IMG/VR virus record: IMGVR_UViG_3300003324_000104
Location: 1-21,803 of that record
DNA: 21,803 nt
DNA from: a virus
Strand: one strand, 5' to 3'
Under the pieces are notes generated by a model. It was not told the origin of the DNA. It ran no database searches and was given only the letters and a program-made list of their open reading frames with translations. Every line of letters starts with the position of its first letter. Position 1 is the stretch's first letter. Positions 48 through 17,337 of the stretch are shown here, piece by piece. The position numbers and the translations under genes were made by a program.

Positions 48-76
48 TTGTTAATTTAATTTTAGAATGTTATATT
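48..76 (+). promoter_or_regulatory. Sigma70-like promoter of the major capsid gene
   Basis: A -35 like TTGTTA (48-53) and a -10 like TATATT (71-76) are separated by 17 bases. A TG at 68-69 gives an extended -10 (TGTTATATT). The expected start of transcription is near base 83, about 25 bases before the ATG at 108. The -10 lies inside the 5' arm of the inverted repeat at 72-109. The match to consensus is good, but nothing shows which polymerase uses it. Confidence 0.6.
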
Positions 77-109
77 AACTCCTGATTTAAACAATTAGGA
101 GTTTAATAT
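72..109 (+). promoter_or_regulatory. RBS-sequestering hairpin at the capsid gene
   Basis: Bases 72-83 pair with 97-109 (12 base pairs with one bulged T near 102-104). The stem extends inward by G84-T96 wobble, A85-T95, T86-A94 and T87-A93, leaving a loop of about five bases. The 3' arm holds the Shine-Dalgarno AGGAG (97-101) and the first two bases of the start codon. Long transcripts entering from upstream should hide the start site. Transcripts from the promoter at 48-76 begin near base 83, lack the 5' arm and should leave it open. Confidence 0.6.
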
Positions 110-1013
110 GCCATTACTAAGAGCCGATGCCGAGCGACTTTCTAATAACCAGTTAGTCTCAGGCGTCATTGAAGAAATTATTAAGCGTGACGCTATTTAC
201 GCATTGCTCCCTTTCGTTGGCACTAACCATAAGGCTTATGTGTACAACCGTGAAGGTACTATTCCGACCGTTAGCTTCTACGATGTAAACAGTGCAATTG
301 GGGAAGGTGCGCCAACCAATTCACAAGTTACCGTAACTCTCAAGATTCTCGCTCACAACGTTGATATCGACAAGTTCCTTTCAGGTACTATGAACGATAC
401 CAATAACCAAGTTGCTGAAGCACTTGCTGGTGCAGCTAAGGCTGTTGACCAGAAGTTCCGCGATACTCTTGTTAACGGTGATACTGGCGTAGATGCTCTT
501 TCCTTTGACGGTATGAAGAAGCTCGTTACTTCAGGTCAGACCATTGATGCTGGCACTAACGGCGCTGCTCTTACTTTCGACATGCTTGACCAACTTATTG
601 ACCAAGTTCTAACTGGTCGTCCAGATGCACTCATTATGCGCTTTGGTACTTATCGTGCCCTCAAGGCTCTTATGAGAACATCAGGTGGTATGGTTCCAGA
701 ACAGCTTAAGATTCGTGAATTTGATGGTACTGTTCCTGCATACGATGGTATTCCTATCATTCTTTCAGAGTACCTTCCTGCCAACGAAACTCTAAACGCT
801 GGTTCAAACCTCTGTTCAATTTATGCTGCTCGCTTCAATACTTCTGATGGCCTTCACGGTATTTACGGTGAACCAACTGCCGGTGTTGTAGTTGAAAATC
901 TAGGGACTCGTGAGTCTTATGACGCATGGAGATACCGTCTTAAATGGTATGTATCTCTTGCTCTTAAGAGCACTAAGAGTATCGCCCGCCTACAGGGCAT
1001 TACAAACACGTAA
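108..1013 (+). CDS. Major capsid protein, HK97-fold type
   Basis: This 301-residue protein is probably the shell subunit of the phage head. Support is mostly family resemblance and place: the length is right for a phage major capsid protein, the sequence resembles HK97-fold coat proteins (acidic helical N-terminus; central helical stretch around VAEALAGAAKAVDQKFRDTL at about 104-123; C-terminal region with YDAWRYRLKWYVSLALKS), and it sits directly before a head-completion and neck block. It starts at the beginning of the coat domain with no long N-terminal delta domain, so any scaffold is probably a separate upstream gene. The ATG at 108 has AGGAG six bases upstream. It has its own promoter, an RBS hairpin and a strong downstream terminator, as expected for a very abundant protein. 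Confidence 0.85.
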   Translation: MPLLRADAERLSNNQLVSGVIEEIIKRDAIYALLPFVGTNHKAYVYNREGTIPTVSFYDVNSAIGEGAPTNSQVTVTLKILAHNVDIDKFLSGTMNDTNNQVAEALAGAAKAVDQKFRDTLVNGDTGVDALSFDGMKKLVTSGQTIDAGTNGAALTFDMLDQLIDQVLTGRPDALIMRFGTYRALKALMRTSGGMVPEQLKIREFDGTVPAYDGIPIILSEYLPANETLNAGSNLCSIYAARFNTSDGLHGIYGEPTAGVVVENLGTRESYDAWRYRLKWYVSLALKSTKSIARLQGITNT

Positions 1014-1014
1014 C

Positions 1015-1043
1015 TTGCTAGGTTAAGATACTTGCGATATACT
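1015..1043 (+). promoter_or_regulatory. Sigma70-like promoter between capsid gene and next gene
   Basis: TTGCTA (1015-1020), a 17-base spacer and TATACT (1038-1043) make a plausible promoter that begins right after the capsid stop codon. Its -10 context GATATACT (1036-1043) is identical to that of the major tail protein promoter (4256-4263). The predicted start near base 1050 lies inside the 5' arm of the terminator at 1044-1069. Confidence 0.5.
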
Positions 1044-1076
1044 AGGGCGAAGCTTTCGGGCTTCGCCCTTTTATTT
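1044..1076 (+). terminator. Rho-independent terminator after the capsid gene
   Basis: A perfect 10-base-pair GC-rich stem (1044-1053 with 1060-1069, core GGGCGAAGC/GCTTCGCCC) has a 6-base loop TTTCGG and is followed by a T-rich run (TTTATTTTAT). This is a textbook intrinsic terminator 31 bases after the capsid stop. It would raise capsid mRNA relative to the downstream neck genes. Confidence 0.88.
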
Positions 1077-1091
1077 TATCTAAGGAATTTT

Positions 1092-1511
1092 ATGAATATT
1101 GTACGCATTGCTGCACCCGGTTGGGAAGGCTATTCGGATTTGTTAGGTGGCGTTCCATTCAAAGATGGTGTTTCTGAACGACCATTAACGCCACAAGAAA
1201 TGGCACGAATTGGTGCGAGTATTAAGCTAGTAAAGGTCGATAACAATGAACAAGTGGGAGCTTCTACGATTATGGCTTGTTCTCGTAATATATCAGCAGA
1301 GGTTGTCCCGGCTCTCAAGAAAGCTTCAGAAGCTACGCCTAAAGAAGTAGAACCCAAATACAGTAAGGATAGACTCGAAGAAATTGCTTCTGAGGGTGGT
1401 ATCAAAGCTATTAGGGAAATCGCTAAGGAATTTGACGTTAAGGGCGTCGAAATTAGTAAGATGATTGATGAAATCATGAAGGTTCAGTTGGGTACCAAGG
1501 AAGAAGAATAA
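1092..1511 (+). CDS. Small protein after the capsid gene, unknown function
   Basis: This is a 139-residue soluble protein. The frame is open from TTG 1032, but that start lies in the promoter and terminator. ATG 1092 has AAGGA (1082-1086) five bases upstream and is the better choice. The N-terminal half looks beta-rich. The C-terminal part (about residues 91-130) is helical with the pattern EEIASEGGIKAIREIAKEF followed by DVKGVEISKMIDEIM. It resembles a small helical SAP/Rho-N-like module that I associate with proteins next to capsid genes in other phages. It overlaps the next gene by one base (TAATG). A head-assembly or decoration role is inferred from position only. Confidence 0.75.
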   Translation: MNIVRIAAPGWEGYSDLLGGVPFKDGVSERPLTPQEMARIGASIKLVKVDNNEQVGASTIMACSRNISAEVVPALKKASEATPKEVEPKYSKDRLEEIASEGGIKAIREIAKEFDVKGVEISKMIDEIMKVQLGTKEEE

Positions 1512-2287
1512 TGCTTGAATTTGCATCCAATACTGATGTTACGATAGAGATTCCATATGAGTATAACGGCACTCAACTGACTTTAACAAATTTTGAATAT
1601 GAAGTGCTAGATGCTAGTGGTACTGCTGTTGTAGCTCGTCAAGTTGATCCTGACTTTAACGCTGGCAATACATCTTCAACGTTAACTATACCAGCAAGTG
1701 CTAACACAACATCAGCCAAAAGGGATGCTCGCCTTCTTAATTGCTATCTGACTAATGCTAGTGGTGAATATGTAGTATCACAGGCATACGTGCTGAAGGG
1801 CAATGTGCTTCAACTGACACCGTTGACGGACAGTTTTATGACCTTTCCACAGTCGGTCTTGGTACGGGTCCAAATGGCAGAAGAACAAGATTATTTTGAT
1901 GCATTAAGTGACGAATTAAAGGCTGTCGCATTAGAAGAGTCATTTAATCGCATTGCTAATCTTAAATTTAAGGTAGGCACGACAACTATCCTTGATATAA
2001 AATCAATGACATTGGGGGATTTTAATGCGCTAGACCCTGCCTTTCTATTGGACCTTCGTAAAGCACAAATTACTGAAGCAAATAATATTGTAGAGAACAG
2101 CCCAATTCGAGATAAAATTCGCTCAGGCATTATTTCAGAAACTATCGGTGAGTCTTCAATGTTCTTTCAAAGGTCAGGGTTTCCAGTGAATAAAAGCGGT
2201 CTATCAGATGATGCCGAATTATTCTTAAAGAAGTGGATTTATAACGATGCCGCAAGTTCTCAATCTTGGCGGCTATATAGAGCCTAA
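1511..2287 (+). CDS. Probable head-to-tail adaptor / connector protein
   Basis: This 258-residue protein sits third in the capsid-to-tail block, where the portal-binding adaptor is expected. Residues 1-120 are beta-rich. Residues 120-258 are mainly helical, with the segment IRSGIISETIGESSMFF (about 204-220) followed by a run near LFLKKWI. This helical region recalls phage adaptor proteins that bind the portal, but no motif is diagnostic. ATG 1511 overlaps the previous stop and TAA 2285-2287 overlaps the next ATG, so translation is probably coupled. An alternative is another minor head protein. Confidence 0.6.
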   Translation: MLEFASNTDVTIEIPYEYNGTQLTLTNFEYEVLDASGTAVVARQVDPDFNAGNTSSTLTIPASANTTSAKRDARLLNCYLTNASGEYVVSQAYVLKGNVLQLTPLTDSFMTFPQSVLVRVQMAEEQDYFDALSDELKAVALEESFNRIANLKFKVGTTTILDIKSMTLGDFNALDPAFLLDLRKAQITEANNIVENSPIRDKIRSGIISETIGESSMFFQRSGFPVNKSGLSDDAELFLKKWIYNDAASSQSWRLYRA

Positions 2288-3009
2288 TGCTAAGGCAATC
2301 AGAATTCACTAGCGTAGCGAATGAGGTTTCAATAAGGTATGACCATTTTCTAGAAACGATTCTTGCTTCTTATAATCGCACCATTTTAGCAGCAGACCTT
2401 TCTCCTCGGTCTATTGAAGGTTTCAAAAAAGAAACAGCAAATATTCTCAAACACTACCTTGAAAGAGAAGTAACAGAGATCGTTACTTTATATCAAAGAT
2501 TATTAGCTGATATCGCTACTGACACACAGCAACTTCCAGTAAAAGTAACCGAAGATGAAGATTGGACGGAGCATTTAAGCGAAAATACACATTTCCTTTA
2601 TGAAGCTATTAAACTTCAGGCTGCAAAAGACGTTCTTTATGTCACAAACTTCTTAAGAACAAAAGTTATAGCTCTTCATTCATTGAATGACGGCCAGATT
2701 GCTTATAGCCTCGTTTATAATCATAAAGATTTAAATTTCTATTATACCGATAAGCTTGGCCGTAAAATCAATTCAACTAAATATGTCCGTACAATTACCA
2801 GAGATTTCATGGTTAAGAATTATAATGACTTAATAGCCGGTGCAGCAATTCTAAATGGAATAACAGAAGCTACTATCGAGAACACAGATGAAGGTCACAA
2901 GGACAACGGTAAAATCATTGCAATAAATAACCCTAATAGAGTAAACTACTTTACTATTAGGGAAGATGTATTTCATCCTAATAGTAACTCTATTTTAAGG
3001 ATTAGCTAG
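2287..3009 (+). CDS. Putative virion structural protein, unknown
   Basis: This 240-residue protein is not confidently recognised. The first 130 residues are helical and charged, with no signal peptide or membrane segment. Around residues 150-195 is GRKINSTKYVRTITRDFMV then NYNDLIAG, which faintly recalls the helical part of minor head (MuF-like) proteins. That resemblance is weak. Position between a probable adaptor and a head-closure protein supports a head or neck role. It is joined to both neighbours by one-base overlaps. Confidence 0.5.
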   Translation: MLRQSEFTSVANEVSIRYDHFLETILASYNRTILAADLSPRSIEGFKKETANILKHYLEREVTEIVTLYQRLLADIATDTQQLPVKVTEDEDWTEHLSENTHFLYEAIKLQAAKDVLYVTNFLRTKVIALHSLNDGQIAYSLVYNHKDLNFYYTDKLGRKINSTKYVRTITRDFMVKNYNDLIAGAAILNGITEATIENTDEGHKDNGKIIAINNPNRVNYFTIREDVFHPNSNSILRIS

Positions 3010-3374
3010 TGTTCATTCCTAACCGTATTGCCTACATAAGACGTAAATCTAAAACTACTGATATGTATGGTCAACACACATACGGTCAGAAAGAAGCTAT
3101 TCATTATGCATTGGTAAGATATGATACGGTAATTGAAGACTCGACTGTTCGTGCAGACTCTTCAGCTACAAGAGGTAATATTAAAGAGTTTCACGCATCG
3201 GGACGTATTCTAGTTGAAAAAAGACATAATCCTGATTTTGGCGATTTGGTTATTGTTGAAGGTAGAGTTTATCAAATCAAAGGCGTCGAAATTCGCTTTA
3301 ATGTTTTAGGTAAGCTAGACCATTATCAATGTGAGCTAGAGAAATATGAAGATTTGTACGGGGATGAATCATAA
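3009..3374 (+). CDS. Head closure / head-tail joining protein
   Basis: This 121-residue protein has the size and beta pattern of the head-closure (head-tail joining) family, which caps the connector so that DNA stays in and the tail can dock. The start is GTG 3009, overlapping the upstream TAG in a TAGTG junction. The C-terminal half (FGDLVIVEGRVYQIKGVEIR, then a polar tail) is typical of these small barrel proteins, where 'dominant position, bulk value, correction' strands repeat. Position directly before an HK97 gp10-like protein supports the call. Confidence 0.65.
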   Translation: MFIPNRIAYIRRKSKTTDMYGQHTYGQKEAIHYALVRYDTVIEDSTVRADSSATRGNIKEFHASGRILVEKRHNPDFGDLVIVEGRVYQIKGVEIRFNVLGKLDHYQCELEKYEDLYGDES

Positions 3375-3850
3375 TGGGTATGCGTTATTCAAGCCAGTTT
3401 AATCTAGATAAGCTCCGTCAAAATCTGTTTGCTCGTCAAGGTCGATACTATAAAGGTATGCGTGATGGTGCTGAAATTGGTGCCGAGATAATCATGGCTA
3501 AAAGTCAAGAAAACTCTCCTGTAGATACTTATAACTTAGAAGAAGCACATCATATTGAAACTACCCACACTGCGGCTGATAACGTTAGAGTAACTATAGA
3601 AGTTAGCGGTATTGGATACGGTTCAGAGCATCCTAGGGACGTTGAAACCTATGCAATGCTGGTACATGAAATGTTAGCCCCATACGGGGCAGGAGAGCTT
3701 AATGGTAAGCCTTTTAGCATTGGGCCTAAGAGCCGAGCCAAAGCTGCCACCGGTAAGGCTGTTGGTGGTAAATTCCTCGAACGTGCAATTGAATCTGAAA
3801 AGGCAAAAGCTATCCAAGCTATTCGTGAATCTATTCGGAAAAATAAATAA
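3374..3850 (+). CDS. Neck protein, HK97 gp10-like (tail completion)
   Basis: This 158-residue protein has hallmarks of the HK97-gp10 family: an N-terminal helix, the segment NSPVDTYNLEEAHHIE (polar, proline-aspartate turn), the motif ETYAMLVHE around residues 93-101, and GGKFLERAIE near the C-terminus followed by a basic helix. These proteins sit at the head-tail junction and help join the finished tail to the head. ATG 3374 overlaps the previous stop; a second ATG at 3380 is also possible. TAA 3848-3850 overlaps the next ATG. Confidence 0.75.
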   Translation: MGMRYSSQFNLDKLRQNLFARQGRYYKGMRDGAEIGAEIIMAKSQENSPVDTYNLEEAHHIETTHTAADNVRVTIEVSGIGYGSEHPRDVETYAMLVHEMLAPYGAGELNGKPFSIGPKSRAKAATGKAVGGKFLERAIESEKAKAIQAIRESIRKNK

Positions 3851-4233
3851 TGTATGAACACGCTGATATCCTTACCCTGTTAGAGAATGCGGGCCTTGGC
3901 ACCGTTGGTACGGATATCTTTGCGTATCATTCACCCGCTGAAGCTCATAACTGCATAATTGTTTATCCTTCTAATGATCCACCCCCTGTAAGTCCAGAAA
4001 CCCCATTTTATTTCCGTGGTAAATTTCAGGTAATTGTTAGAAATAGTGATTATGCTGCTGGTATTGAAGTTTGTAAGGCAGTCCAAGCTGCACTGACTTT
4101 TTATAATACCGAAACTGCTCAAATGAATGTGAAAGAGTGTAGGCCACTGTATCAGGCACGTATTTATCGTCGTAGTGGTAGCGGCGACTTGGAAATGAGT
4201 ATTAATTTCTCAATTACTTACGTTCAGAAATAA
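3850..4233 (+). CDS. Tail terminator / minor capsid-like protein
   Basis: This 127-residue protein sits between the gp10-like protein and the major tail protein, the usual position of the tail terminator, which stops tube growth and binds the head. The fold pattern fits the small alpha/beta terminator family: an N-terminal helix (DILTLLENAGLG), strands around FQVIVRNSDY, a helix AGIEVCKAVQAALT, and a C-terminal strand SINFSITYVQK. Translation is coupled to the upstream gene by TAATG. The next gene has its own promoter, so this ends the head/neck unit. Confidence 0.65.
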   Translation: MYEHADILTLLENAGLGTVGTDIFAYHSPAEAHNCIIVYPSNDPPPVSPETPFYFRGKFQVIVRNSDYAAGIEVCKAVQAALTFYNTETAQMNVKECRPLYQARIYRRSGSGDLEMSINFSITYVQK

Positions 4234-4235
4234 GT

Positions 4236-4263
4236 TTTACTTGTTTTAGCTTTATGATATACT
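4236..4263 (+). promoter_or_regulatory. Extended -10 promoter of the major tail protein gene
   Basis: TATACT (4258-4263) is preceded by TG (4255-4256), giving the extended -10 TGATATACT. A weaker -35, TTTACT (4236-4241), lies 16 bases upstream. The predicted start is near base 4270, so the leader is about 27 bases. The 8-mer GATATACT is shared with the promoter at 1036-1043. Confidence 0.5.
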
Positions 4264-4291
4264 CCATAGTGATTTTACTTTTGGAGATATC
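4256..4291 (+). promoter_or_regulatory. RBS-sequestering hairpin at the major tail protein gene
   Basis: GATAT (4256-4260) plus CTCCA (4262-4266) pairs with TGGAG (4282-4286) plus ATATC (4287-4291). This gives ten base pairs with one bulged A at 4261 and a 15-base loop. The Shine-Dalgarno GGAG (4283-4286) is in the 3' arm and the -10 TATACT is in the 5' arm. The predicted transcription start near 4270 is in the loop, so only read-through RNA could form the hairpin. Confidence 0.5.
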
Positions 4292-4296
4292 TAGAT

Positions 4297-4833
4297 ATGC
4301 CTTATACAAACACCAATGCTGACAACGTTCAACTAGGCACTTGCTCAGTGGTATTCGGTTCTGCTGACCTTGGCCTTACTAAGGGCGGCGTTGAGGTTGA
4401 CCTAACTACTGAAACTTATAAGATTGTCGTTGACCAATTCGGCTCAACTGAAATCAACGAATATATTACAGGTAGAAACGCCACCGTTAAGGTTCCTCTA
4501 GCTGAAACCGACCTTGCAACCCTTGCTCTCGTTATTCCGGGTTCAACCCTCGTAACAGATGGTACGACTCCTACCAAGAAGAAGATTAATGTTACTACGA
4601 CCACAGGTACTTCACTTCGTACCTATGCTGACGTTCTAACTCTTCACCCAATTGCACAAGCTACTAGCGCAAAGAATTATGACTTTGTTGTTCCTATTGC
4701 TTGCCCCAAGGGTGAATTCAACTTTGCCTATAAGCTAGATGAAGAGCGTATTTATATGGTTGAGTTCTATGCTCTTCCTGATTTGACTACTGGTCTTCTC
4801 TATGTTATTGGTGATGCTTCTGCTACTCCATAA
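4297..4833 (+). CDS. Major tail tube protein
   Basis: This 178-residue protein is probably the repeating subunit of the non-contractile tail tube. It is beta-rich and polar, with the opening typical of tail tube proteins (VQLGTCSVVFG, then DLGLTKGGVEVDLTTETYKI), a mid-sequence NEYITGRNATVKVPLAE, and a late strand FVVPIACPKGEFNFAYKLDE. Size, position before the chaperone and tape measure, and its own promoter all agree. ATG 4297 has GGAG ten bases upstream, a slightly long spacing. There is no C-terminal Ig-like extension. Confidence 0.85.
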   Translation: MPYTNTNADNVQLGTCSVVFGSADLGLTKGGVEVDLTTETYKIVVDQFGSTEINEYITGRNATVKVPLAETDLATLALVIPGSTLVTDGTTPTKKKINVTTTTGTSLRTYADVLTLHPIAQATSAKNYDFVVPIACPKGEFNFAYKLDEERIYMVEFYALPDLTTGLLYVIGDASATP

Positions 4834-4850
4834 AGAGTAGATTGAAATAG

Positions 4851-4882
4851 TCCCTGCCCTTGGTTTGTTACAGGGGCAGGGA
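4851..4882 (+). terminator. Strong stem-loop after the major tail gene, poor U-tract
   Basis: TCCCTGCCC (4851-4859) pairs perfectly with GGGCAGGGA (4874-4882). The stem extends inward by a T-G wobble, T-A and G-C to about 12 base pairs with an 8-base loop. The bases after it (TTGCTCTCTCC) are not a clean T-run, so termination is probably partial. It may instead protect the 3' end of the abundant tail tube mRNA or reduce expression of the chaperone. Confidence 0.55.
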
Positions 4883-4909
4883 TTGCTCTCTCCAAAATAA
4901 AAGGTGTAA

Positions 4910-5266
4910 ATGACAAAAGTAATCAATCTCGACCAACTTGAAACTCGTAAGGATCGGGCTGTTATCCTTAAAGGTAAGGAGCATATTATGAAAACCCTTA
5001 CCGTCAAAGATTATATCTTACAGCTAAAGACTCAACAGGAACTTGAAAAGCTTTCAGCAAACGTTGAGCAAAATCCCGATACTGCTGACCGTCTTATCGA
5101 ACTTACTGTTGACGCACTAAGCCAATTGTTCCCTACAATTGAACGGGAAGACCTCTTATCGCTTAATATGGATCAGCTTAATGCCATGCGTGGCCTCGCT
5201 GAAGGCTTTGCCGAAGAGGAGGCACCAGATGCGGAAGATACGGGGGAATCGACGGGGAAGGAATAG
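4910..5266 (+). CDS. Tail assembly chaperone, G-like short form
   Basis: This 118-residue protein lies between tail tube and tape measure, the position of lambda gpG. It coats the tape measure and recruits tube subunits during tail assembly and is not in the finished virion. Family features are a beta-rich N-terminus (VINLDQLE, RAVILKGKEH), then TLTVKDYI, helices, and a very acidic C-terminus (FAEEEAPDAEDTGESTGKE). ATG 4910 has AAGGTG close upstream. An in-frame ATG at 4988 has a better Shine-Dalgarno (AAGGAG 4976-4981, six bases away), which would give a 92-residue product lacking the N-terminal strands. The long form fits the family better. Confidence 0.85.
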   Translation: MTKVINLDQLETRKDRAVILKGKEHIMKTLTVKDYILQLKTQQELEKLSANVEQNPDTADRLIELTVDALSQLFPTIEREDLLSLNMDQLNAMRGLAEGFAEEEAPDAEDTGESTGKE

Positions 5267-5580
5267 CAATTGAAGCTATTGACCTTCCCTTTTTTATAAC
5301 CCGCGTTAGTCGTTATTATTCTTTAACTTACGACTCTATCTTAGACCTTCCATTAAGAGTTTTTTCCTTATATAATAAAAACGTTAGTCGCTTACGTGCT
5401 GAAGAAGATATGCGGCTAATACAATTACTTGCATCTTCTCAATATGCTCAAGCCTACGAAAAAATCACCACGAAACTTAGAGACGAATACGGTGAGCCTG
5501 TAATCAAGAAACGTAGCGGCATTATTCCTATGCAAGTGGATGCTTGGGAAAGACTGAAGGCTCTAAATGGCAGCAATTGA
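4910..5580 (+). CDS. Tail assembly chaperone, GT-like fusion by -1 frameshift
   Basis: The -1 frame is open from 5203 (after TGA 5200-5202) to TGA 5578-5580 and has no good start codon of its own at its head. It encodes GIAIEAIDLPFFITRVSRYY and then a helical domain ending near WERLKALNGSN. That placement and content match the T extension of lambda-type gpGT chaperones. A shift within 5203-5266 would give a fusion of about 223 residues. The G-rich sites G GGG GAA (5242-5248) and G GGG AAG (5254-5260) are the likely slip points. The end overlaps the tape measure start, a normal arrangement. It explains the apparent gap 5267-5566. Confidence 0.8.
5242..5260 (+). promoter_or_regulatory. Probable -1 ribosomal frameshift site
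   Basis: In the G frame the region reads ACG GGG GAA TCG ACG GGG AAG GAA TAG. Both GGG codons are preceded by G, so tRNA-Gly can slip back perfectly. The A-site tRNA then re-pairs with one wobble: GAA to GGA at the first site, AAG to GAA at the second. Neither is a canonical X XXY YYZ heptamer. A 6-base-pair AT-rich hairpin (5262-5267 with 5275-5280) lies just downstream, and an AGGAGG (5216-5221) lies upstream. Which site is used cannot be decided from sequence. Confidence 0.55.
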
Positions 5581-8500
5581 TAAATTAGTTATTGAAATTA
5601 CAGGTGATGCTTCTGGTTTGACTAAGGCTCTTAGTCAGTCACAGAAGAATCTTACCTCATTCAATGCTAACGTTATCGCTGGCAATAGAGCGATTAATAC
5701 ATTCGTTGGTGCCTTAACAAAGGGTGCTGGTGCTGCTGGTAGATTAGCTGCTACCGTTAATGAAGTTAAGAGCACATTTACTGGTCTTAATCGAAACGTT
5801 AGTTCAACAGCTAGCGCAATTGGTCGATTAGGTAGTTCTGCACGTACAGCTAATAATGACATTAAATCCTTTGCATCGCAGCTTTCTAAGCTCGCTGGAA
5901 GCTTTGAACGAATTTCGGGTGCTTCTAAAAGCGCCCAAGCTGCAATCAATTCATTACAGCGCAGAGTTGCCGCCTTAGGGACCACGGTATCTGCTGTTAA
6001 TGGTAACATGCGTACTTTCAATCGTACCGTTGAAATGGGAACAGCCGGTGCTAGGGCTGGCGGTATCATTGTTAATAATTATGGTAGAAATCTTGAAGGT
6101 GCTGGCGGCTCTGCGAATCGTGCTAGCGGTATGTTTAGTAGGCTTAACAAAGCAAATATCACTTTAATGGAGGGTTTTCGTAGGCACGTTGCTCAAATCA
6201 CTGCCCTTAGAACTCTAACTTATCAGGCTATTTTCTGGTTTAGTCCTTTAATTTACAGCATTATTAAAGTTAACGCCCAATACGAGAAGCAAATGCAGCT
6301 TCTTAAAAATTTATCTGGGATTCAGGACGAATTGGGGAAGCAAAAATGGGCCGAACAAACATATCGACAGCTAATCCAATTAGCGAATACGAATCCTTTC
6401 TCTTTAGGACAAATTACAAATACTTTCGTGCGAATGAAAGTTACTGGATTGGACCCTCTTAACGGCTCTCTTCAGACCTTAATGGATTCTATCGCTGCTT
6501 TTGGTGGCGGCAATGAGGAACTTGAACGTGCCGGTATCGCACTACAACAGATGGTTGGTAAGTCAGCCGTTTCAATGGAAGAACTTCGTCAGCAATTAGG
6601 TGAGCACATTCCTGATGCTATGAGCGCCATGGCAAAAGGCATGGGTCTTTCTATGGCGGAATTTTATAAACAAGTTCAGCATGGCACTGTAGAGTCACGA
6701 AATGCTATTGCTAAAATGATTGCTGTGTTAGCAAACGACCACTATAACGCAGCAAAAAACATGATGAATACATGGAATGGTTTGCTTGCTAGAATGGGAA
6801 CTGCTTGGCAAACGTTCGTTGCTCACTTAGAGCATGGTAATAATGGCAACACATTTATTAAAGCTTTGAAAGAACAAGTAGAAGACCTAATTAGATTTCT
6901 CAATACTCCTGCGGGGGTTGTATTTGCTCATGATATAGAAAATTCGTTAATTAACGTTGTTCATGTTATAAGTAGCGTTATAAAGCTTGTATATGAATGG
7001 CGCGATGTAATTGTAATTGCCGCGAAGACGTTTGCTGTGTTTTGGGGTGGTAGATTGATTATCGGTTCTATTCTAGGAGTGATATCTACATTTGTTAAAT
7101 TACGTTCTGCTATTCAGTTAACAATTTTGGTGTTGGCTGCTCTGAGAGGAGGATTAGTTTCTGCTCAAGCCGCTGCCGTGGCTATGGGAGTCGATATCAA
7201 GCTAGCGACTACCGCGACCAACATGCTTGGCGGTGCCGCTGGTACTGCAAATGCTAGGCTCCTAACCCTTATTGGTACGTTTGTACGAAGTGCTACTGCT
7301 GCTGGTATTTTAGCTGGTTCAATTTGGATGATTGTTAACGCGCTCAACGCTAAAACCCTTGCAGAAAGAAATGAAGCTTTAGCACAAGCTGGTGCAGAAG
7401 GTACACCTTGGAAAGATGATAAAGAACGTGCAGCAGCTTTAACTGACCTTAGAAGGCAAAAATTTTATCGTGATAAGGGGTTATATGTAGATACTAGCGG
7501 TAATATTCCTCGCTTTCACCGATGGGATGATAAGGCAGAAGAAAGATATCAGAATGCTATCGTAGGTTATAATCAGAGACAAGAAGTAACAAGAAATATC
7601 ACTTCGCAAAATATCAATCAGCGTTATTCAGATTATCTAGAAAAGGGCAATCCAATTTCGTCTGTCGAAAGTTTTTGGTTAAATCAAAAGAAAGATGTGA
7701 CAGACCCTAAACAGCGACAAGCACTTGAATTACAACAAGCAAGGGCAATGGCTGGTGCGGCCTCAAATTATTTAATGACATTGGAACACAAGCGAGACGA
7801 CAAGTCACTAAATCCCGACCAACGCCAAGCACTTGAAGCTAAGATTTTAGAAGTGCAAAGAACAAAGGACTCTTATGACACTAATGTAACGGCTCTGTCT
7901 TCACCAAATGTTTCAATTGCAGGAAATAAAAAAGGCAAGAAAAACAAAACAAAGAAAAATCCCCTTGAAGGCGCAGAGAACTCTTTTGCCAACGAACACG
8001 TTCGCACTGCTGACCTAGAGCATCAATACGAAGACCTTAAGAACAATACTAGCACTGAATTTGATGGTGAAGCGGCTCTTAAAGAGGGTCAACGGCTAGC
8101 TGGTTTAATTAAGACCAAAGAAGCTCTTAAGCTTGCTCGTCAGGCTGAACGGGATCGTCAAGAAGAGCTTAAGAAGAGCATTAAGGTTGAGCAGGCTATC
8201 CACGATATTGAAGATAAGAAAGCTGAAACCGAAGCTGAACTCCATGAAGGGCTAGAAGACTTAACGACTAGCTATGTATCAGTATCTAGTCAAGCCAACC
8301 GTTATCGTGAAACGCTAGAACGCGAAAAGAAAATTGAGCTTCAAATTGTAGAAGCTCGCATGGCGACAGGTAATGCAACGCAGGACCAGATTCGCCAATA
8401 TGTAGCTCTTAAAGAAGCTATCAACGGGGCCGTTAGAGCTAAGCAAGCTGAGCTTGTCGTTGAAGCAGCTAAGGAAGCTAAAAGCGCTAATGAAGATTAT

Positions 8501-9876: not shown

Positions 9877-10496
9877 TGAGTTCCAAACATTTAAATCTTT
9901 CAACTGTTGTTGATAAAAATAAAGTCAGTAGCGATAAAGCCTTTCTAATTTTGTTCAAGGTGGTAGTTAAAGATTATCTTGGTGCCACAGTTGATACACT
10001 ACATTTTGCTAAAAATAGCGCTAATGTTGTCTTTAATGGTGATGTTTACCAAGCAGCTAACTTTGATTTAGATATTAAGGTAGAAGAAGCTAAAGAGCCT
10101 AGTGTTACTCTTACTGCCCAAGACCAAACTAAAACTCTTTCTACATATATTGATTTATATGATGGTCTAGTGAAGAGTGATGTAACATTATATATTGTCC
10201 ATGAAGACTCTTTAGATGGACCTCCTGAAATGAGTGAAGATTTTATCGTAACTGACGCGACAACATCTGAGTATGTTGTGACAATGACTCTTGGCTTAGA
10301 AAGCGCCGTAGCACAACGTTTCCCTAACTTTAGACAGTTTAGAAATCGCTGTGCTTGGAAATATAAAGGTGAACGTTGTAAGTATTCGGGCGCTATGCCA
10401 ACTTGTGATTATACAAGGGATGGAGCTAACGGTTGCATTGCTCACTCTAACGAAGTGAATTTTGGCGGGTTCCCCGGTATTAATGACCTCTTCTAA
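9876..10496 (+). CDS. Minor tail protein, lambda L-like, probable Fe-S protein
   Basis: This 206-residue protein is a homologue of the lambda gpL tail tip protein. The N-terminal about 150 residues are a beta-rich domain. The C-terminal domain has four cysteines at 159, 168, 177 and 187 (spacing 8, 8, 9) within NRCAWKYKGERCKYSG...TCDYTRDGANGC and ends in NFGGFPGI. In lambda gpL the equivalent four cysteines hold an iron-sulfur cluster, so the same is inferred here. The order M, L, K, J supports the call. The next gene starts inside its 3' end. Confidence 0.85.
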   Translation: MSSKHLNLSTVVDKNKVSSDKAFLILFKVVVKDYLGATVDTLHFAKNSANVVFNGDVYQAANFDLDIKVEEAKEPSVTLTAQDQTKTLSTYIDLYDGLVKSDVTLYIVHEDSLDGPPEMSEDFIVTDATTSEYVVTMTLGLESAVAQRFPNFRQFRNRCAWKYKGERCKYSGAMPTCDYTRDGANGCIAHSNEVNFGGFPGINDLF

Positions 10497-10875
10497 TCTT
10501 ACAGATTATATTGGTATCCCTTTTGAATATGGCGGCAGGGACCATAACAAGCTAGACTGTTATGGACTAGTCATGCTATTATACAAAGAGTTACATGATA
10601 TTGAGATTCCTGATGTAACTTCTCCATCGTTTATTAAAGATATTCATGACCTCGTAGCCGTGGAAAAGCTCAAATGGACTCCATCTGAGCTAGAACCGGG
10701 AGTAGTTATTATATTCAGTATTAAAGGCTATGGTGCTCACGTAGGTTATTATCTTGGAGAAGATAAGATGATACATACTTGGGAAGCTACTGGTGGAGTT
10801 ACAATCGAAAGATTAGGATTATCTTGGAAGCATAGAATTTTAGGTGTTTATAAGTGGGAACAGAAGAACAAGTAG
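10483..10875 (+). CDS. NlpC/P60 cysteine peptidase, lambda K-like tail tip protein
   Basis: This 130-residue NlpC/P60-type peptidase probably cuts peptide stems of peptidoglycan during tail entry. The catalytic Cys26 is in LDCYGLV, the His86 in YGAHVGYY, and His98 in MIHTWEA is a fitting third residue. The frame is open from TTG 10462, but ATG 10483 is chosen because the domain begins soon after. No clear Shine-Dalgarno is seen, so translation is probably coupled to the L-like gene, which it overlaps by 14 bases. Unlike lambda gpK it lacks an N-terminal JAMM/MPN metallopeptidase domain and is NlpC/P60 only. Confidence 0.85.
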   Translation: MTSSNLTDYIGIPFEYGGRDHNKLDCYGLVMLLYKELHDIEIPDVTSPSFIKDIHDLVAVEKLKWTPSELEPGVVIIFSIKGYGAHVGYYLGEDKMIHTWEATGGVTIERLGLSWKHRILGVYKWEQKNK

Positions 10876-13800
10876 TTAAAGTTGGTCTAGTTTATAACGC
10901 TTTCGACCCTACGAACGTTGTACGCGAAGAGCTACTTTATCAAAAAGACAAAACACTAAAACATTATATTGAAGGTCTTCCTGATACGTGTGATTGGAGG
11001 ATTGGCCTCAACGCAATTCCCGTTGAACCTAAAGATTATGACGAACTTATTCCTGCACCGAATGATTATATTTCTGTAGTTTCTGTACCACGTGGCGGAA
11101 GCGGTGGTAAAGACATTCTTCGTCTTGTAGCACTAATTGCTGTTGTCGTTGCCGCTGGTATCCTCCTAGGCCCCGGTGCTTTCGGTATTACAGGTTTGGG
11201 TTTAACGGGTACTACATTCGCAGTGGCATTTGCCGCATCGGTTGCAGTTGGCGCTTTTCTAGTTAACTTAGCATTGCCACCTACCCAACTTAAATTAAAA
11301 AGCGATGCTGATGGTCAGACCTACGGTTACGATGGAGCAAAAAATACAGCAAAAGAAGGTATTACTCTTCCTGTAGTTTATGGTCAATTCCGAGTAGCTG
11401 GTAACTATGTTGACGTATTCACTGAAAATGTGGGTGACGACCAATACCTATATGGCCGAGTTGTTCTTTCCGATGGTGAAATTGATTCTGTCACCGGCGT
11501 TCCTGAACTTAACGAGCAACCTTTAACTGACTACAAGGGAGTAGAATACGGCTCAACCCTTGGAACCTTAGCTGACCCCGTTAATACTCGTTTCAATAAG
11601 GCGAAGTCTCAGTTTTTTAGACAAGATAAACTAACAACAACCTATACTGAATATACTACCACAGATGAAATTGATGCGTTCGAGATTGATTTTATCTTCC
11701 CTCAAGGTTTGACTGATATCAATACCAAGACGGGGGATAAGGGTAATTTCAGTGTTACAGTTGAAATTCAATATGCTCCTTTTGGCACAACAGATTGGAC
11801 TAATCCGGGTAGCACTAATTCAGCTACTTCTCCGTTAACGCTGTTTACCGGCTCTTCTCCTGTTAATACTCATTTTTCTCTCCTCGTTAGAGGCCACGAT
11901 GCAGTTGGCGCAATTAATGGAACAGCAACCTATAGCGTAGAATATAGTCCTGCTGGTGCTGGTACATGGACTACATATCAAACATTCAATGACCAAAGCA
12001 CAAGCTTTTCTACTAGCAGAGATTTAACTGGCATTGGCGGCGATTACAGTAGATTCGAAAACGTTCTTCCTGACGTTGGCTCTGTAGGTTTCTTCACCGA
12101 ATATCCACAACGCACAGTTAATTTAACACTACCTTCTGGTAGTTATGATTTTAGAGTTACTGGCGATGGCACACTACTTGCTACATATGTTGGCACCGCT
12201 ACAGTTGCTCCGGGTTCAGCGGGTGCTTCTGGCAGTACACAAGTTACATATACTGATCGTCGCACGGTAGCTATTCGTAAGACTTATAAATCACCTACAT
12301 TACCCCGTTCAAAATACCATATTCGTTTTCGAAGGACTACTGCCGAAGATTTAGGGCATCCTGATTGGATTAGTCAACTAAATTGTACTGCTGTTGCTGA
12401 AATTCAACATTCAAACGTTTCATTACAAAGTGTTGCTACTGGCTGGTATGTAGCGAAAATGACAGACCAATTACAAGGAATCCCAAATATTACTTGGTTG
12501 GTTAAAGGCGTTAAGGTTGATATCTATGACGTTAACGGTAACGTCACTGCTACTCAATGGTCTGACAATCCGGCTGATATTGCCCTTGATATGCTTATTG
12601 GCTCTAGAAGAGGAGCATTAAGAGGAAAACTAGATGTTGATTGGCCCGCCTATGTTGCATGGCGTGACCATTGCACTGCCGAGAGTCTAAAATTTAACGG
12701 CGTCTTCGATGATATGACGACCTTATGGGACGCTTTACAACAGGTTTACAGGGTTGGTAGAGCTATGCCTGTTCGCGTTGGGACAAAGCTTTCTGTCGCG
12801 GTTGATAAAGCTAGCGAACCTGTAATGCTTTTTGGCCCCGGCAATATTTACAAGGACTCATTTCAAATTCACTATCTTTCGTTAGCTGATAGAGCTAACG
12901 AATTCGAGGTAGATTATTTTGATAAGGACGACCGTAACAAACAACATACAATTCGTATCGCCGATCCTGATGCAGCCCAAGCTGGTGAAATTCCAAAGAC
13001 TGCTCAATATACTCTTTTCGGCGTTGATAATTTTGACCAAGCACAAAAAGAGGTTTGGTATCAGTTATATAATAATAGATTAGCTCGCCGCGTTGTTACG
13101 TTCGATGCGCCTGTTGAATCAATCGGTTTAAATATTGGTGATGTTGCTTTAATACAACATGACCAAGTTGATTGGGGTTTTAGCGGTAGAGTCGCTAGTG
13201 CGGCAAGTTCTAGTCAGATAACGCTTGATAAAGAAGTTGAAATAGAATCTGGCGAGTCTTATCTCCTCTTAATCATTCATGATAAATTAGAGCGCTTTAC
13301 TTGTAATTTTACGAACCTAGCGGGTAATACCTATTCGCTAAGTGGTATGAGCGCTACAACGTTTACTGAAGACCAAATTAAACGCATTCAGACAGATACA
13401 GGCGATGAAGCCGCAGTGCTAGTGTATGATTACCTAGGCAGCGGCAATGCTACTGTAACACTAGATAAGACCATTACAGGCACTACAGCGAGCGTTTGGG
13501 ACGTTGACGTTATCGAAGAAAAGGCAGTTAGTACAGGCGTTGGCCTTCATACTACGGTTAATGTATCGGGTGGTTTTTCAATTACTCCTGCTCAGTACTC
13601 AAACTATATGTTTGGAAAAGTTGACTCTGTTAAACGGCCATTCCGTCTAAGGTCAATTAGCGGCGATGGTTATGAACGTAGAACACTAACCTTTGGCGAA
13701 TATAACGACTTTGTTTATAGCCCGCCCGAAACTCCAATCCCGCCGCCAACTGCCAAGCCTCCTACATACCCCAATCATGTAACTGGATTAAACCTTACCT

Positions 13801-16778
13801 TAGAGCCAATTCGTACCGGTACTACCGTCACTGGCGTTCTATCATGGGTTGTAGGCGATATCCTTCATTATGCTGGTGTTGATGTTTATATTGCCACCAA
13901 TGGTGGTGATTTTGTTTTCTATAATACTGTAATGAACACAAGCACGATGATGATACAACTACAGGAGGGAACTTCTGTAGATATCAAAGTTGTAGCATTC
14001 AATGACAGGGGCTTCAGAGCTAACTTTAATACCGCTCCTACAATCCACCAAACAGTTGGTACTGTTGCTGGTTCTCTTGTTGAACCTACAGACCTTACTT
14101 GGACTCTTATTAGAATTGATTATATGGCAAGCGGTTCACTGTCATGGACTCGTGGAGATAGTGGCTTGGGTAACTTCTCGCCAGTTACTAGAGTCCAAAT
14201 TCAGTTTAACGGAGCCGGTGATTGGATTGATAAAGGTGTAACCCAAGAGACTATTCTTGAAGTACACGACATTCCAGCAGGAAACCATACTGCTCGTATT
14301 CGTACCGAGAACACTACGGGTCAAGTTTCGGATTGGGTTGAACAGAGTTTCGCTGTTGTAGCGCCGACTCTTGTTAATCCTACCTTCGCTACAGACGGTA
14401 GTGCTCTTAACCATACTATGAATACAGATAGCTCAGCAAATATCAGTGTTGAGTGGTTATGGGCTGGCTCAGAAGATGATATTGATGGTTTTCAAATCAT
14501 TAGTCACCAAGCAAGTACTAATGCTATTTATACCTTAGGTACTGACATTAGTAGTGAGACTATTAATACTACGACTCCCGATAAACGCATTTTCTATTAC
14601 TATGGTGTTCCTTGTGACCAGTTCTACACAATTTACTTAAGGGCTTATAAATTCGTTCACCCTTCGTTCGCTGCGAGTGGTATTATTTATTCAACCGCAA
14701 ACCATCCAACTTTTACTGGTGAATATCCTTATCAACCAAGCGCAGATGTTACTTTTGGTGGTGACGTTACTGGCACTATCGGTGGTGTCCCGGTTGAAGA
14801 TATTATTGCTGGTGGTGGTGATACCGATCCACCATTAATTCCTAGCGGTTTAACTTTATCAAGTTCACTTGAAGATAACCCTGATGGAACGCAATGGGTT
14901 AAATTACTTGCTGAATGGACGCCGAATACTGAACCTGATTTAGCCAGTTATGTTATTGCGTTAAAAGAAGACACAAGCGATTACATTGAATTCACTGTTA
15001 GTGGTAGCTTAACTTCATTTTATTGGTCCGTCCTAGCTTCGACGCCCTATACGGCGAAAATTAAAGCGCTGGATAGCAATCTTAACAGCAGTGGCTATTC
15101 TGCCCCTGTTAGCCATACAACCCTCGCTGATACGGTCGCTCCTGCCGCTCCTACGGCTCTTTCTGGTTTAGCTGCAATTACTAGCATCTTCTTATCATGG
15201 ACTAATCCGCCTGATGCGGACGTAACCAAAATCAAAGTCTATGAAAATGATGTAAACGATTCATCAACTGCGACTAATATTGCTACGGTATTGGCAACTC
15301 CGAACTCACAAGGTAGATTCACTCGGTCAGGATTAGCGACCGGAGTTACAAAATACTATTGGGTTAAAGCTGTAGATATATCAGGCAATACGTCAGATTT
15401 TAGTATTGGTACAAATGTCACAACAGCACAAGTTGGTACTGGCGATATCGCAGCTTTCTCAATCACTGCTGCTCAAATCGCCGCTGGTACTATTTCCGCC
15501 GATAAGTTAGCCGCTGGTATTATTACAGGCGACTTAATTCAAACAGGAACGAGTCTCCCCGGAAGTATTACGGTTGGCACTACCGGTGTAACAATTCAAA
15601 CGATTGCTGATTACGCGATTGACCCCGCTGCTAGAATTAACGCTAATACTACCCAAATCTTACCCGGTTTGGTTCTGATTAGTGGAAGCACGACTCTATC
15701 AGATTGGCGCAATGGTGGTGACCTTACTAAAATTGAAGGCGGTAGTATCGCGGCAAATACTATTACTGCCAACAAGCTAAATATTGGTCTTCGCGGAATT
15801 GATATTTCAGATATCGAATTTCAATGTGATAAGCCTGTAGCAAACAGAATTACTTGGACTACTGGTACTATTACCTATGTTAATGATGTAGGTTCACCCA
15901 CCCAAGTTACCATTACTGCTGGTAATGCTGATTGGTCAGGTAGTATTCTTTATATTTATTGGATTAAAGGTGGCACTGTTCTCAATGCCACAACTGTTCC
16001 CGCTACTGCTTACGCTACGAATAACATTGTTTTAGCTACCTATACTGGCGGAACTAGTATGGTGGTAAATTATGGTCGGACGATTATTGATGGCGCTAAT
16101 ATTATCACTGGCACTATTGACGCTAACCGTATCAAAGCTGGTAGCGTCTTAGCTGATAATGTTCTCATTGGCACTGGTGTTAGTGGCCTTACCGCTGGTG
16201 ATATTGCGCTGTGGGCTTCCACTACCGACCATACGTTTATTGACGGTGGTAAGATTTATGCTAATTCAATCACTGCTGCTCAATTAACAACAGGGACTCT
16301 TATTTCAACGTCAGCGCAGATTGGTGATTTGACTGTCACAAGAATTAAGATTGCTGGCGGTCAGATTATTACGCCAAGCGTTACTGAAGGTTCAGATACC
16401 TTTATTACAAGCACCGCTGGTACAGACATTCTAGCTAGCTCTGCGGTAACGGTGGGTGATGCTACTGATGGTAAAGCACTTGTTACTATTTTTGGTTGGA
16501 TGGATTTCAGTGCTGACAAAGATATCGTCGCTGCGATTGACCTATACGTTGCGACTAATGGTGGCGGCTATGTTCTTAAAAAGACTGTCAAAGCTGGCAC
16601 TAATACTACTGGTGGTTCTACTTATGCATTCATTCCTTTCAGTGCTAGCTTCACTGTTTCAGGCGTCCAGACCGTGCAAGTAAAGATGGTTGGAAGACAG
16701 GCGGTTATCGGCGGATCAGACTTTAAAACTAGTGTCTGTCGCGGACCTACTATCGTTATTCAGGGAGCGGCTAGATAA
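10854..16778 (+). CDS. Tail tip / central fibre protein, fused I-J type
   Basis: This 1974-residue protein combines a lambda gpI-like N-terminus with a gpJ-like body. Residues 1-85 are a small alpha/beta domain, and two hydrophobic glycine-rich segments follow (about 88-110 and 118-142). Residues 150-960 are the J-like tip core, with an inserted beta-rich segment at about 320-478 and a proline-rich end (PPETPIPPPTAKPP). About five fibronectin-III-like domains follow (roughly 967-1065, 1072-1170, 1172-1290, 1322-1424, 1426-1526). Residues 1527-1850 carry repeated ITAxQIAAGTI-like motifs, and a terminal beta domain (1850-1974) may bind the receptor. The start is GTG 10854 with AGGTG seven bases upstream, overlapping the K-like gene by 22 bases. 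Confidence 0.9.
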   Translation: MGTEEQVVKVGLVYNAFDPTNVVREELLYQKDKTLKHYIEGLPDTCDWRIGLNAIPVEPKDYDELIPAPNDYISVVSVPRGGSGGKDILRLVALIAVVVAAGILLGPGAFGITGLGLTGTTFAVAFAASVAVGAFLVNLALPPTQLKLKSDADGQTYGYDGAKNTAKEGITLPVVYGQFRVAGNYVDVFTENVGDDQYLYGRVVLSDGEIDSVTGVPELNEQPLTDYKGVEYGSTLGTLADPVNTRFNKAKSQFFRQDKLTTTYTEYTTTDEIDAFEIDFIFPQGLTDINTKTGDKGNFSVTVEIQYAPFGTTDWTNPGSTNSATSPLTLFTGSSPVNTHFSLLVRGHDAVGAINGTATYSVEYSPAGAGTWTTYQTFNDQSTSFSTSRDLTGIGGDYSRFENVLPDVGSVGFFTEYPQRTVNLTLPSGSYDFRVTGDGTLLATYVGTATVAPGSAGASGSTQVTYTDRRTVAIRKTYKSPTLPRSKYHIRFRRTTAEDLGHPDWISQLNCTAVAEIQHSNVSLQSVATGWYVAKMTDQLQGIPNITWLVKGVKVDIYDVNGNVTATQWSDNPADIALDMLIGSRRGALRGKLDVDWPAYVAWRDHCTAESLKFNGVFDDMTTLWDALQQVYRVGRAMPVRVGTKLSVAVDKASEPVMLFGPGNIYKDSFQIHYLSLADRANEFEVDYFDKDDRNKQHTIRIADPDAAQAGEIPKTAQYTLFGVDNFDQAQKEVWYQLYNNRLARRVVTFDAPVESIGLNIGDVALIQHDQVDWGFSGRVASAASSSQITLDKEVEIESGESYLLLIIHDKLERFTCNFTNLAGNTYSLSGMSATTFTEDQIKRIQTDTGDEAAVLVYDYLGSGNATVTLDKTITGTTASVWDVDVIEEKAVSTGVGLHTTVNVSGGFSITPAQYSNYMFGKVDSVKRPFRLRSISGDGYERRTLTFGEYNDFVYSPPETPIPPPTAKPPTYPNHVTGLNLTLEPIRTGTTVTGVLSWVVGDILHYAGVDVYIATNGGDFVFYNTVMNTSTMMIQLQEGTSVDIKVVAFNDRGFRANFNTAPTIHQTVGTVAGSLVEPTDLTWTLIRIDYMASGSLSWTRGDSGLGNFSPVTRVQIQFNGAGDWIDKGVTQETILEVHDIPAGNHTARIRTENTTGQVSDWVEQSFAVVAPTLVNPTFATDGSALNHTMNTDSSANISVEWLWAGSEDDIDGFQIISHQASTNAIYTLGTDISSETINTTTPDKRIFYYYGVPCDQFYTIYLRAYKFVHPSFAASGIIYSTANHPTFTGEYPYQPSADVTFGGDVTGTIGGVPVEDIIAGGGDTDPPLIPSGLTLSSSLEDNPDGTQWVKLLAEWTPNTEPDLASYVIALKEDTSDYIEFTVSGSLTSFYWSVLASTPYTAKIKALDSNLNSSGYSAPVSHTTLADTVAPAAPTALSGLAAITSIFLSWTNPPDADVTKIKVYENDVNDSSTATNIATVLATPNSQGRFTRSGLATGVTKYYWVKAVDISGNTSDFSIGTNVTTAQVGTGDIAAFSITAAQIAAGTISADKLAAGIITGDLIQTGTSLPGSITVGTTGVTIQTIADYAIDPAARINANTTQILPGLVLISGSTTLSDWRNGGDLTKIEGGSIAANTITANKLNIGLRGIDISDIEFQCDKPVANRITWTTGTITYVNDVGSPTQVTITAGNADWSGSILYIYWIKGGTVLNATTVPATAYATNNIVLATYTGGTSMVVNYGRTIIDGANIITGTIDANRIKAGSVLADNVLIGTGVSGLTAGDIALWASTTDHTFIDGGKIYANSITAAQLTTGTLISTSAQIGDLTVTRIKIAGGQIITPSVTEGSDTFITSTAGTDILASSAVTVGDATDGKALVTIFGWMDFSADKDIVAAIDLYVATNGGGYVLKKTVKAGTNTTGGSTYAFIPFSASFTVSGVQTVQVKMVGRQAVIGGSDFKTSVCRGPTIVIQGAAR
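15459..15476 (+). repeat. 18-base direct repeat, copy 1, in the fibre gene
   Basis: TCAATCACTGCTGCTCAA occurs here and again, exactly, at 16266-16283. Both encode SITAAQ in the same frame. It reflects a repeated protein motif (SITAAQIAAGTI, SITAAQLTTGTL) in the C-terminal stalk and probably arose by internal duplication. Confidence 0.8.
16266..16283 (+). repeat. 18-base direct repeat, copy 2, in the fibre gene
   Basis: This is an exact copy of the 18-mer at 15459-15476, in the same reading frame and again encoding SITAAQ. The flanking codons differ, so only the motif core is conserved at DNA level. Confidence 0.8.
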
Positions 16779-17281
16779 TGCGTTATGGTTACTTTGATGC
16801 TGATGGAATCTGTTTAGCTATTTCTACTAATGAACTAGAAAGTCCCAATTATATATATCAAATTTCTGTGCCTGATGATGGAACTCCTTCCGATTTTTGG
16901 TATGACATTTCTAAGAAAAGAGTGGTAAGTACGCAACAGGGATTTGAGTTACTTAAAATGCTTAGTTGTCCTGCTGTAATGAAACTGGGTGAAAGTTATA
17001 CCCTCAATATTCCTGAAAACTGTGTGTTGGAGGTAGATGGCACTCGCTATAAGAAACAAGTCACTTTGACCTATAACATTCCAAGAAAGGTTCTTTTATT
17101 TGTTAAAGGGCCTTGGGTTGGTGACGTAGTAGTTGATGTTAATAGTTACATTGAAGATAGACTCACAGCATATCCTACCGTACAAGAGCAACTTGATATG
17201 CTTTACCATTTAGGATTCGATGCTTGGAAAGCGGAGATTACTAAGATTAAAGAGAAGTATCCTAAGCCAGAAGACCTCTAA
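16778..17281 (+). CDS. XkdW-like / fibre-assembly-associated phage protein
   Basis: This 167-residue protein immediately follows the tip/fibre gene and overlaps it by one base. The N-terminus begins like small tail accessory proteins (MRYGYFDADGICLAIS). The C-terminus (about 124-165) has YIEDRLTAYPTVQEQLDMLY, then a helix with GFDAWKAEI and EKYPKPE. That 'AYP..QEQLDMLYH.GFDAWK' pattern is common at the ends of tail fibre accessory proteins, including XkdW-like ones. It may be a fibre chaperone or a minor tip component. Function is uncertain, but the family resemblance is fair. Confidence 0.6.
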   Translation: MRYGYFDADGICLAISTNELESPNYIYQISVPDDGTPSDFWYDISKKRVVSTQQGFELLKMLSCPAVMKLGESYTLNIPENCVLEVDGTRYKKQVTLTYNIPRKVLLFVKGPWVGDVVVDVNSYIEDRLTAYPTVQEQLDMLYHLGFDAWKAEITKIKEKYPKPEDL

Positions 17282-17283
17282 GG

Positions 17284-17312
17284 TTGCTTGATTGATTAGT
17301 AAGGAGTATAAT
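17284..17312 (+). promoter_or_regulatory. Promoter of the lysis genes
   Basis: A perfect -10 TATAAT (17307-17312) lies 17 bases after TTGCTT (17284-17289), a half-match to the -35. The predicted start is near 17319, giving a leader of about 19 bases before ATG 17338. The -10 overlaps the 5' arm of the inverted repeat at 17310-17332. Confidence 0.6.
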
Positions 17313-17332
17313 TCCTAGTTAAAATAGGAATT
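17310..17332 (+). promoter_or_regulatory. RBS-sequestering hairpin at the endolysin gene
   Basis: AATTCCTA (17310-17317) pairs perfectly with TAGGAATT (17325-17332) across a 7-base loop. The 3' arm holds AGGA (17326-17329), the likely Shine-Dalgarno for ATG 17338. The predicted start of transcription (about 17319) lies in the loop, so only read-through RNA from the tail genes would fold. It may also act as a DNA operator because it spans the transcription start. Confidence 0.6.
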
Positions 17333-17337
17333 GACTC

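Follow-up and report, generated by a model that had tools for sequence, protein, structure and literature searches.

Promoters inside ribosome-binding-site hairpins: computational evidence for translation set by the transcription start site at virion and lysis genes of a phage clade

We analysed a fragment of an uncultured phage from IMG/VR (21,803 nucleotides, referred to as the window) and found that its genes for the major capsid protein, an Ig-domain tail protein and an endolysin are each preceded by a hairpin that holds the −10 box of a promoter in its 5′ arm and the Shine-Dalgarno (SD) sequence, often together with the AUG, in its 3′ arm. It is likely that these genes are separate expression units, with the translation of each set by the site of transcription start. 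In the computed folds, the 5′ arm of RNA reading through from upstream would fold onto the start site and close it for translation, and RNA from the local promoter would begin just past the anti-SD stretch and leave the start site open. The local promoter is presumably used, probably late, and the amounts and timing of capsid protein, tail protein and endolysin would then follow their own promoters and not the operon. The computational evidence for a mechanism of the T4 gene e kind is strong, and placing the promoter in such a hairpin seems to be a rule of the group at its virion and lysis genes. The hairpin layout appears to be an evolved habit of this clade, firmly so for the capsid gene and less firmly elsewhere; its purpose may lie in stoichiometry and lysis timing. 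An earlier note had read the three leaders as sharing one layout, with the 5′ arm over the −10 box and the SD in the 3′ arm. This was confirmed by folding, by the positions of the boxes and by constrained shuffles (0, 6 and 1 of 200 as strong for the capsid, tail and endolysin hairpin, respectively), and the interpretation offered there is largely supported.

Shell and tail-tube proteins are needed in hundreds of copies, and how they come to exceed their operon neighbours in long late operons is often unclear. The sequence offers a simple answer. If it holds, the operon maps of these phages are misleading, as a gene inside a transcript would stay untranslated from that transcript. The layout would also represent a compact genetic part of about 60 bases that combines a promoter with a translational insulator, and it gives a search rule for other phages.

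The phage and its relatives

No megablast DNA match to the window was found among cultured phages, and relatives were therefore sought by protein. The closer capsid relatives (L002-L007) are 71-84% identical; the Pseudomonas phages nickie and Nican01, Rhizobium phages and SSU5 are among those further away. The compared set consisted of six distinct AT-rich genomes (the window, G001, G002, G003, G004 and G006); G005 was excluded because its capsid leader is identical to that of G004. A short ORF in the window (19574-19783), which overlaps the end of the preceding gene, matches HNH/endonuclease VII families over their N-terminal part (phrog_1035, E 1e-12) and looks like a truncated endonuclease.

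The capsid gene unit

The major capsid protein gene (108..1013, + strand) was identified by matches to phrog_212 major head protein (E 2e-81) and, above the cut-off, PF20911. Its promoter (48..76, +) consists of a −35-like TTGTTA (48-53), a 17 nt spacer and an extended −10 TG-T-TATATT (−10 at 71-76), with a +1 predicted from promoter spacing at about G84. Matching −35 and −10 boxes with spacers of 15-17 nt were found in the five relatives. The hairpin (60..122, +) pairs 71-87 with 93-110 (bulge at 102) and is extended by outer helices 66-69/112-115 and 60-65/117-122. It has an MFE of −22.6 kcal/mol and a z of −6.5, which was equalled by 0 of 200 shuffles. The earlier note was right that the SD is hidden and understated the extent of the hairpin, as the paired bases include not only the SD (97-101) but also the AUG (108-110) and codons 2-5.

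All six capsid leaders combine a −10 box and a −35-like box starting with TTG with a hairpin that hides the SD. The sequences of the arms vary (ACTCCT/AGGAG, TCTCCG/CGGAG, CTTCG/CGGAG, CTCCA/TGGAG), with changes on both sides of a pair at −11, −4, −3, −1, +6, +8 and +9; as each sequence was folded separately, these pair-change counts are biased towards pairing, a bias that does not affect the swap test. In a MAFFT alignment of the leaders the arms of L002 and the window were out of register, and pairs were therefore not counted by column. Per-sequence folding was used in its place, together with a swap test in which 5′ arms and start sites were exchanged between genomes or genes. For the capsid leaders of the six genomes, 4 of 720 arrangements matched the real one. 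When the extended −10, the SD and the coding part were held fixed (constrained shuffles, 200 per hairpin), only 0-3 shuffles equalled the capsid hairpin in each of the six genomes. The longest stems, in G002 and G006, comprise about 20 pairs.

Pairing in the coding part was addressed by synonymous recoding of codons 2-6. Such recoding weakened the hairpin. Pairing was favoured at 2% or better in four of the six genomes, where the natural codons did at least as well as 98-100% of random choices, and in a fifth the real codons equalled or exceeded 93% of random choices (7%); G004 displayed no preference. The first predicted RNA base is in most of the six a purine directly after the anti-SD pyrimidines, so that, judging from promoter spacing, the stretch from −10 to +1 would double as the anti-SD.

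An intrinsic terminator lies directly 3′ of the capsid gene (1044..1069, +; AGGGCGAAGC/GCTTCGCCCT, then T-rich), and a terminator-like hairpin was found at this place in all six genomes, so that the capsid gene looks like an insulated single-gene unit. Such terminators would yield a single-gene capsid transcript. Promoter, hairpin, gene and terminator may then form one unit that is closed to upstream RNA and stopped before the downstream genes. A terminator was also found 3′ of three other hairpin genes. The next ORF is listed with a TTG start upstream of the capsid terminator (region 1032-1092), and the ORF runs through this terminator; the ATG at 1092, after AAGGAA, is more likely the true start.

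The capsid geometry was absent in the distant relatives Nican01, hairong, RHph, ANB28, SSU5, PhiR41 and V1VFA, and was not seen at the capsid gene of about 40 further loci with 47-58% identity. The layout is thus missing at the capsid gene of GC-rich distant relatives. Other structures were observed there. At a distance of 40-80 nt from the capsid ATG, L170, L059, L057, L055, L066, L069 and others have an upstream TATAAT or TATAGT, adjoined by a short AAGTCA..TGACTT-like hairpin that sits at the extreme 5′ end of the RNA and not over the SD, possibly as a 5′ stabiliser. In SSU5-like capsid genes (L040 SSU5, L042 PhiR41), an upstream AGTAACATCTT pairs with AAGATG..TTACT across the start codon and leaves the SD in the loop, which differs from the hairpin of the clade. 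Two loci of Rhizobium phages (L038, L043) carry long, very stable hairpins upstream of the capsid gene (leader fold −38 to −46 kcal/mol) that stop just 5′ of the SD and leave it uncovered.

The tail and endolysin gene units

The tail gene (4297..4833, +) matches phrog_2175 Ig-domain protein (E 2.5e-52) and phrog_885 major tail protein (E 2.8e-6). It probably encodes the major tail or tube protein, although its match to major tail proteins is weak. Its promoter (4236..4263, +) is made up of TTTACT (4236-4241), a 16 nt spacer and TG-A-TATACT (−10 at 4258-4263). The hairpin (4256..4291, +; z −2.5) pairs 4256-4266 with 4282-4291 and contains the SD GGAG (4283-4286). A strong hairpin without a clean T-run follows the gene (4851..4882, +); it is present in G002 and G003 and absent in G004 and G006. 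The tail-gene swap test gave 19 of 720 permutations that match the real arrangement. Of 200 constrained shuffles, only 1 equalled the hairpin of G006 and 6 that of the window, which are the clear cases; with 14 in G003 and 12 in G004 it is marginal, and in G002 it was no stronger than the shuffles (100/200). The tail relative L128 has the promoter TGTGTATAAT but no hairpin.

The endolysin gene (17338..18129, +) encodes a GH24 phage lysozyme (PF00959, E 1.7e-34; phrog_7). The gene identities in the earlier note were thus borne out for the major head protein and the lysozyme, and for the tail gene as an Ig-domain protein with a weak major-tail match. The endolysin promoter (17284..17312, +; promoter score 9.7) has TTGCTT at 17284-17289, 17 nt of spacer and TATAAT at 17307-17312. 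In the hairpin (17304..17337, +; z −3.1), 17309-17317 pairs with 17325-17333, extended by 17304-17307/17334-17337, with the SD AGGA at 17326-17329. The hairpin was kept in three of four genomes: it stands out clearly in G003, G004 and the window, with 1/200 constrained shuffles as strong in each, and is lost in G002, where 187/200 were as strong. The GH19 endolysin of G004 has the same layout, though it is non-homologous to the GH24 enzyme of the window. The pairing that the earlier note expected in close relatives is retained by all six capsid leaders although their sequences differ, is weak or absent at the tail gene of some genomes, and is gone from the G002 endolysin.

Since the dyads overlap the −10 box and the predicted +1, where repressor sites are frequent, the inverted repeats might instead be DNA operators bound by a dimeric regulator, with RNA pairing as a by-product; T4 I-TevI indeed has an operator plus such a hairpin (PMC2988022). 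However, the arms differ among the three genes of one genome and among relatives, with little in common beyond the −10 and the anti-SD, the pairing partners co-change, and at the capsid gene the pairing reaches codons 2-5, where the choice among synonymous codons favours it. We consider operators of this kind an improbable explanation.

Opening of the start site in read-through and local RNA

Seven genomes (the six and the GC-rich G007) contributed 519 gene starts, and at each start the cost of opening the SD-to-AUG region was computed for a read-through RNA and for an RNA whose first base lies 7 nt beyond the best −10. For the capsid, tail and endolysin genes of the window, the cost was 11.7-17.3 kcal/mol in read-through RNA and 3.0-3.9 kcal/mol in RNA with the predicted start 7 nt past the −10, which agrees with the earlier proposal that read-through RNA is closed and local RNA open. 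RNAs of these genes starting beyond the 5′ arm had no significant structure (z 0.2 to 0.8). The RNA start was also moved stepwise in 19 genes; in nearly all of them, most closing pairs were gone once the RNA began 7 nt beyond the −10, close to its expected start. The upstream neighbours of the hairpin genes are mostly 52-80 nt away and co-directional with no terminator between, so that read-through RNA can be assumed to occur.

The coincidence of this drop with the predicted RNA start bears on two further explanations. Thermosensors and translational operators usually take the form of hairpins that hide the ribosome binding site, and the present stems, which share this form, are AT-rich. The hairpin could therefore be a switch on the long RNA that responds to temperature, protein, ligand or ribosome pausing, with the promoter overlap as a secondary matter. 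However, sequences that are unrelated show the drop in cost at the place where RNA is predicted to start, no common loop or bulge motif was seen between genes by eye, and Rfam covariance models gave no match in the window at the gathering score. A regulated switch is thus very improbable. Stems of about 20 pairs suffice for RNase III, and the G002 and G006 capsid stems reach this length; the stems might then serve RNA processing or stability, such as cleavage of read-through RNA by RNase III, instead of blocking ribosomes directly. This would leave unexplained why SD and AUG are paired at many genes and why the arm stops where RNA is predicted to begin, and the tail and endolysin stems are shorter. 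We regard a processing role as highly improbable.

Recurrence of the layout across the clade

Promoter-like boxes alone occur in the window at chance level (42 found, 45.6 expected), as do consensus terminators, and the combined geometry was therefore compared with shuffled sequences. A start was taken to pass with an opening cost of at least 9, a drop of at least 5 and a promoter score of at least 9, and the control consisted of 60 rounds of dinucleotide shuffling of the sequence 5′ of the SD. Of the 161 starts with a good SD in the six AT-rich genomes, 16 passed, compared to 0.22 expected from shuffles (maximum 2). Promoters this good were over-represented before genes (29 vs 4.0), and among starts with such a promoter 16/29 real and 13/238 shuffled ones passed.

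The passing starts belong to the capsid gene (5), the tail gene (5), the GH24 endolysin (2), two G004 genes, encoding the GH19-like endolysin and a polysaccharide deacetylase domain protein with weak tail-protein matches, and the virion protein phrog_3758 of G006. The 16th, G002:7007 (ParB-like), also passed but has a hairpin of a different type. As the passing starts are mostly those of virion and lysis genes, the layout marks these gene classes, and the recurrence foreseen in the earlier note extends to further virion and lysis genes of the clade. Forms with a weaker promoter were seen in G002 at a Gp80/phrog_240 head or fibre protein and at the unknown protein phrog_22694, both marginal in the constrained control; the values at G002:33479 and G002:35672 were 33/200 and 19/200. 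G004:60067 (primase), G004:53709 and G007:13764 have strong hairpins with poor promoters and were not counted.

When arms were permuted over 20 genes, 0 of 20000 permutations were as good as the real arrangement. Chance pairing of an AT-rich −10, anti-SD-like pyrimidines and the start codon is barely credible against this result and the 16 passing starts, even though TATAAT-like sequences pair with ATTATG and the G002 tail gene and endolysin do not exceed their constrained shuffles, and for the capsid gene the shuffles reject it in all six genomes.

A phage sigma factor was not found in G000-G006, which are partial genomes. A search for a T7-type RNA polymerase gave no match, and none in the control genomes either. 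No ParA-like ATPase was found in G004-G007, so that a plasmid-prophage rationale is without direct support in the clade.

Occurrence outside the clade

A pattern scan of IMG/VR for one strict form of the layout gave 10 matches compared to 18 for the intended control; this control retains CTCC/GGAG and is not neutral, real-looking cases occur in both sets, and we claim no enrichment. One match, L264, is a major tail protein gene in an unrelated GC-rich phage contig with a hairpin of −38 kcal/mol. Alongside chance matches, the scans also picked up genes for a homing endonuclease (L266) and for endonucleases (L274, L276). At these three phage loci and at L279, which holds a putative endonuclease gene, a TATAAT lies in a CTCC/GGAG hairpin over the start, resembling I-TevI with sigma70-like boxes.

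In T5, another AT-rich phage, 1 of 40 genes passed the same test. This gene is llp, encoding the lytic-conversion lipoprotein (leader L288:38349-38429), in which a distant upstream TTCTCC pairs with GGGGAGAA and a TATAAT lies within the loop.

Anecdotally, the strict-form matches outside the clade suggest repeated invention. A broader reading, towards which we are tentative and slightly more inclined to doubt than to accept, is that the module has evolved widely and repeatedly in phages that use sigma70. A −10-to-+1 stretch antisense to the gene's own ribosome site would, together with a terminator, silence major virion and lysis genes in all transcripts but their own, and may have been acquired independently by non-homologous genes (the GH24 and GH19 endolysins, the L264 major tail protein and the endonuclease genes).

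Comparison with known systems

The T4 precedent named in the earlier note, the logic of e and soc, is confirmed by the literature (PMC3014915, PMC2988022). In T4 e, longer early transcripts fold an inhibitory structure that lowers lysozyme about 100-fold (PMC3014915), while RNA made from late promoters located in the 5′ strand is open; the genes grouped with e are soc, 49 and I-TevI (PMC3014915; also PMC2988022). The layout described here is predicted to share with these four genes a helix in the long RNA that hides the SD and/or AUG, and a promoter in the 5′ strand that gives a shorter, translated RNA (PMC3014915; PMC2988022). As in e, soc and I-TevI, the SD and/or AUG are paired in the long RNA, the local RNA is predicted to lack the 5′ arm, and the structure is conserved, in 6/6 genomes for the capsid gene, in 3/4 for the endolysin and unevenly for the tail gene. 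The same cost pattern was obtained when T4 leaders were measured in the same way: opening costs in long and short RNA were 15.4/3.8 for e, 8.5/4.8 for soc and 13.2/0.4 for I-TevII, in the same range as in the present phages.

T4 belongs to an unrelated phage group and uses gp55-dependent late promoters (TATAAATA), whereas the present phages have sigma70-like boxes, mostly with an extended −10. The window leaders carry TATATT, TATACT and TATAAT with −35-like hexamers and no TATAAATA. These leaders would work like the T4 cases, but their promoter is not of the T4 late type. The cited T4 list includes lysozyme and soc without the major capsid or tail tube gene, whereas the present clade has the layout at capsid, tail protein, endolysin and other virion genes.

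A hairpin of more than 20 bp has been proposed to block translation of spoIIG read-through RNA at the Bacillus subtilis gene for sigG (spoIIIG; PMC5942855). There too, RNA that starts at the gene's own promoter is unable to form the hairpin (PMC5942855), but this is a single case of a cellular gene with a sigmaF/sigmaG promoter. Hairpins that hide the ribosome binding site also curb expression of the homing endonucleases Aeh1 mobE and T4 segB from neighbouring transcription (PMC2988022). Unlike virion genes, these are selfish mobile genes, and mobE is described without a promoter of its own. In a limited search of open-access papers, we found no report of a major capsid gene with such a layout. 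The logic itself is known; what is new is the sigma70-like type of promoter, the use at the major capsid gene and the systematic use over the virion genes of one clade.
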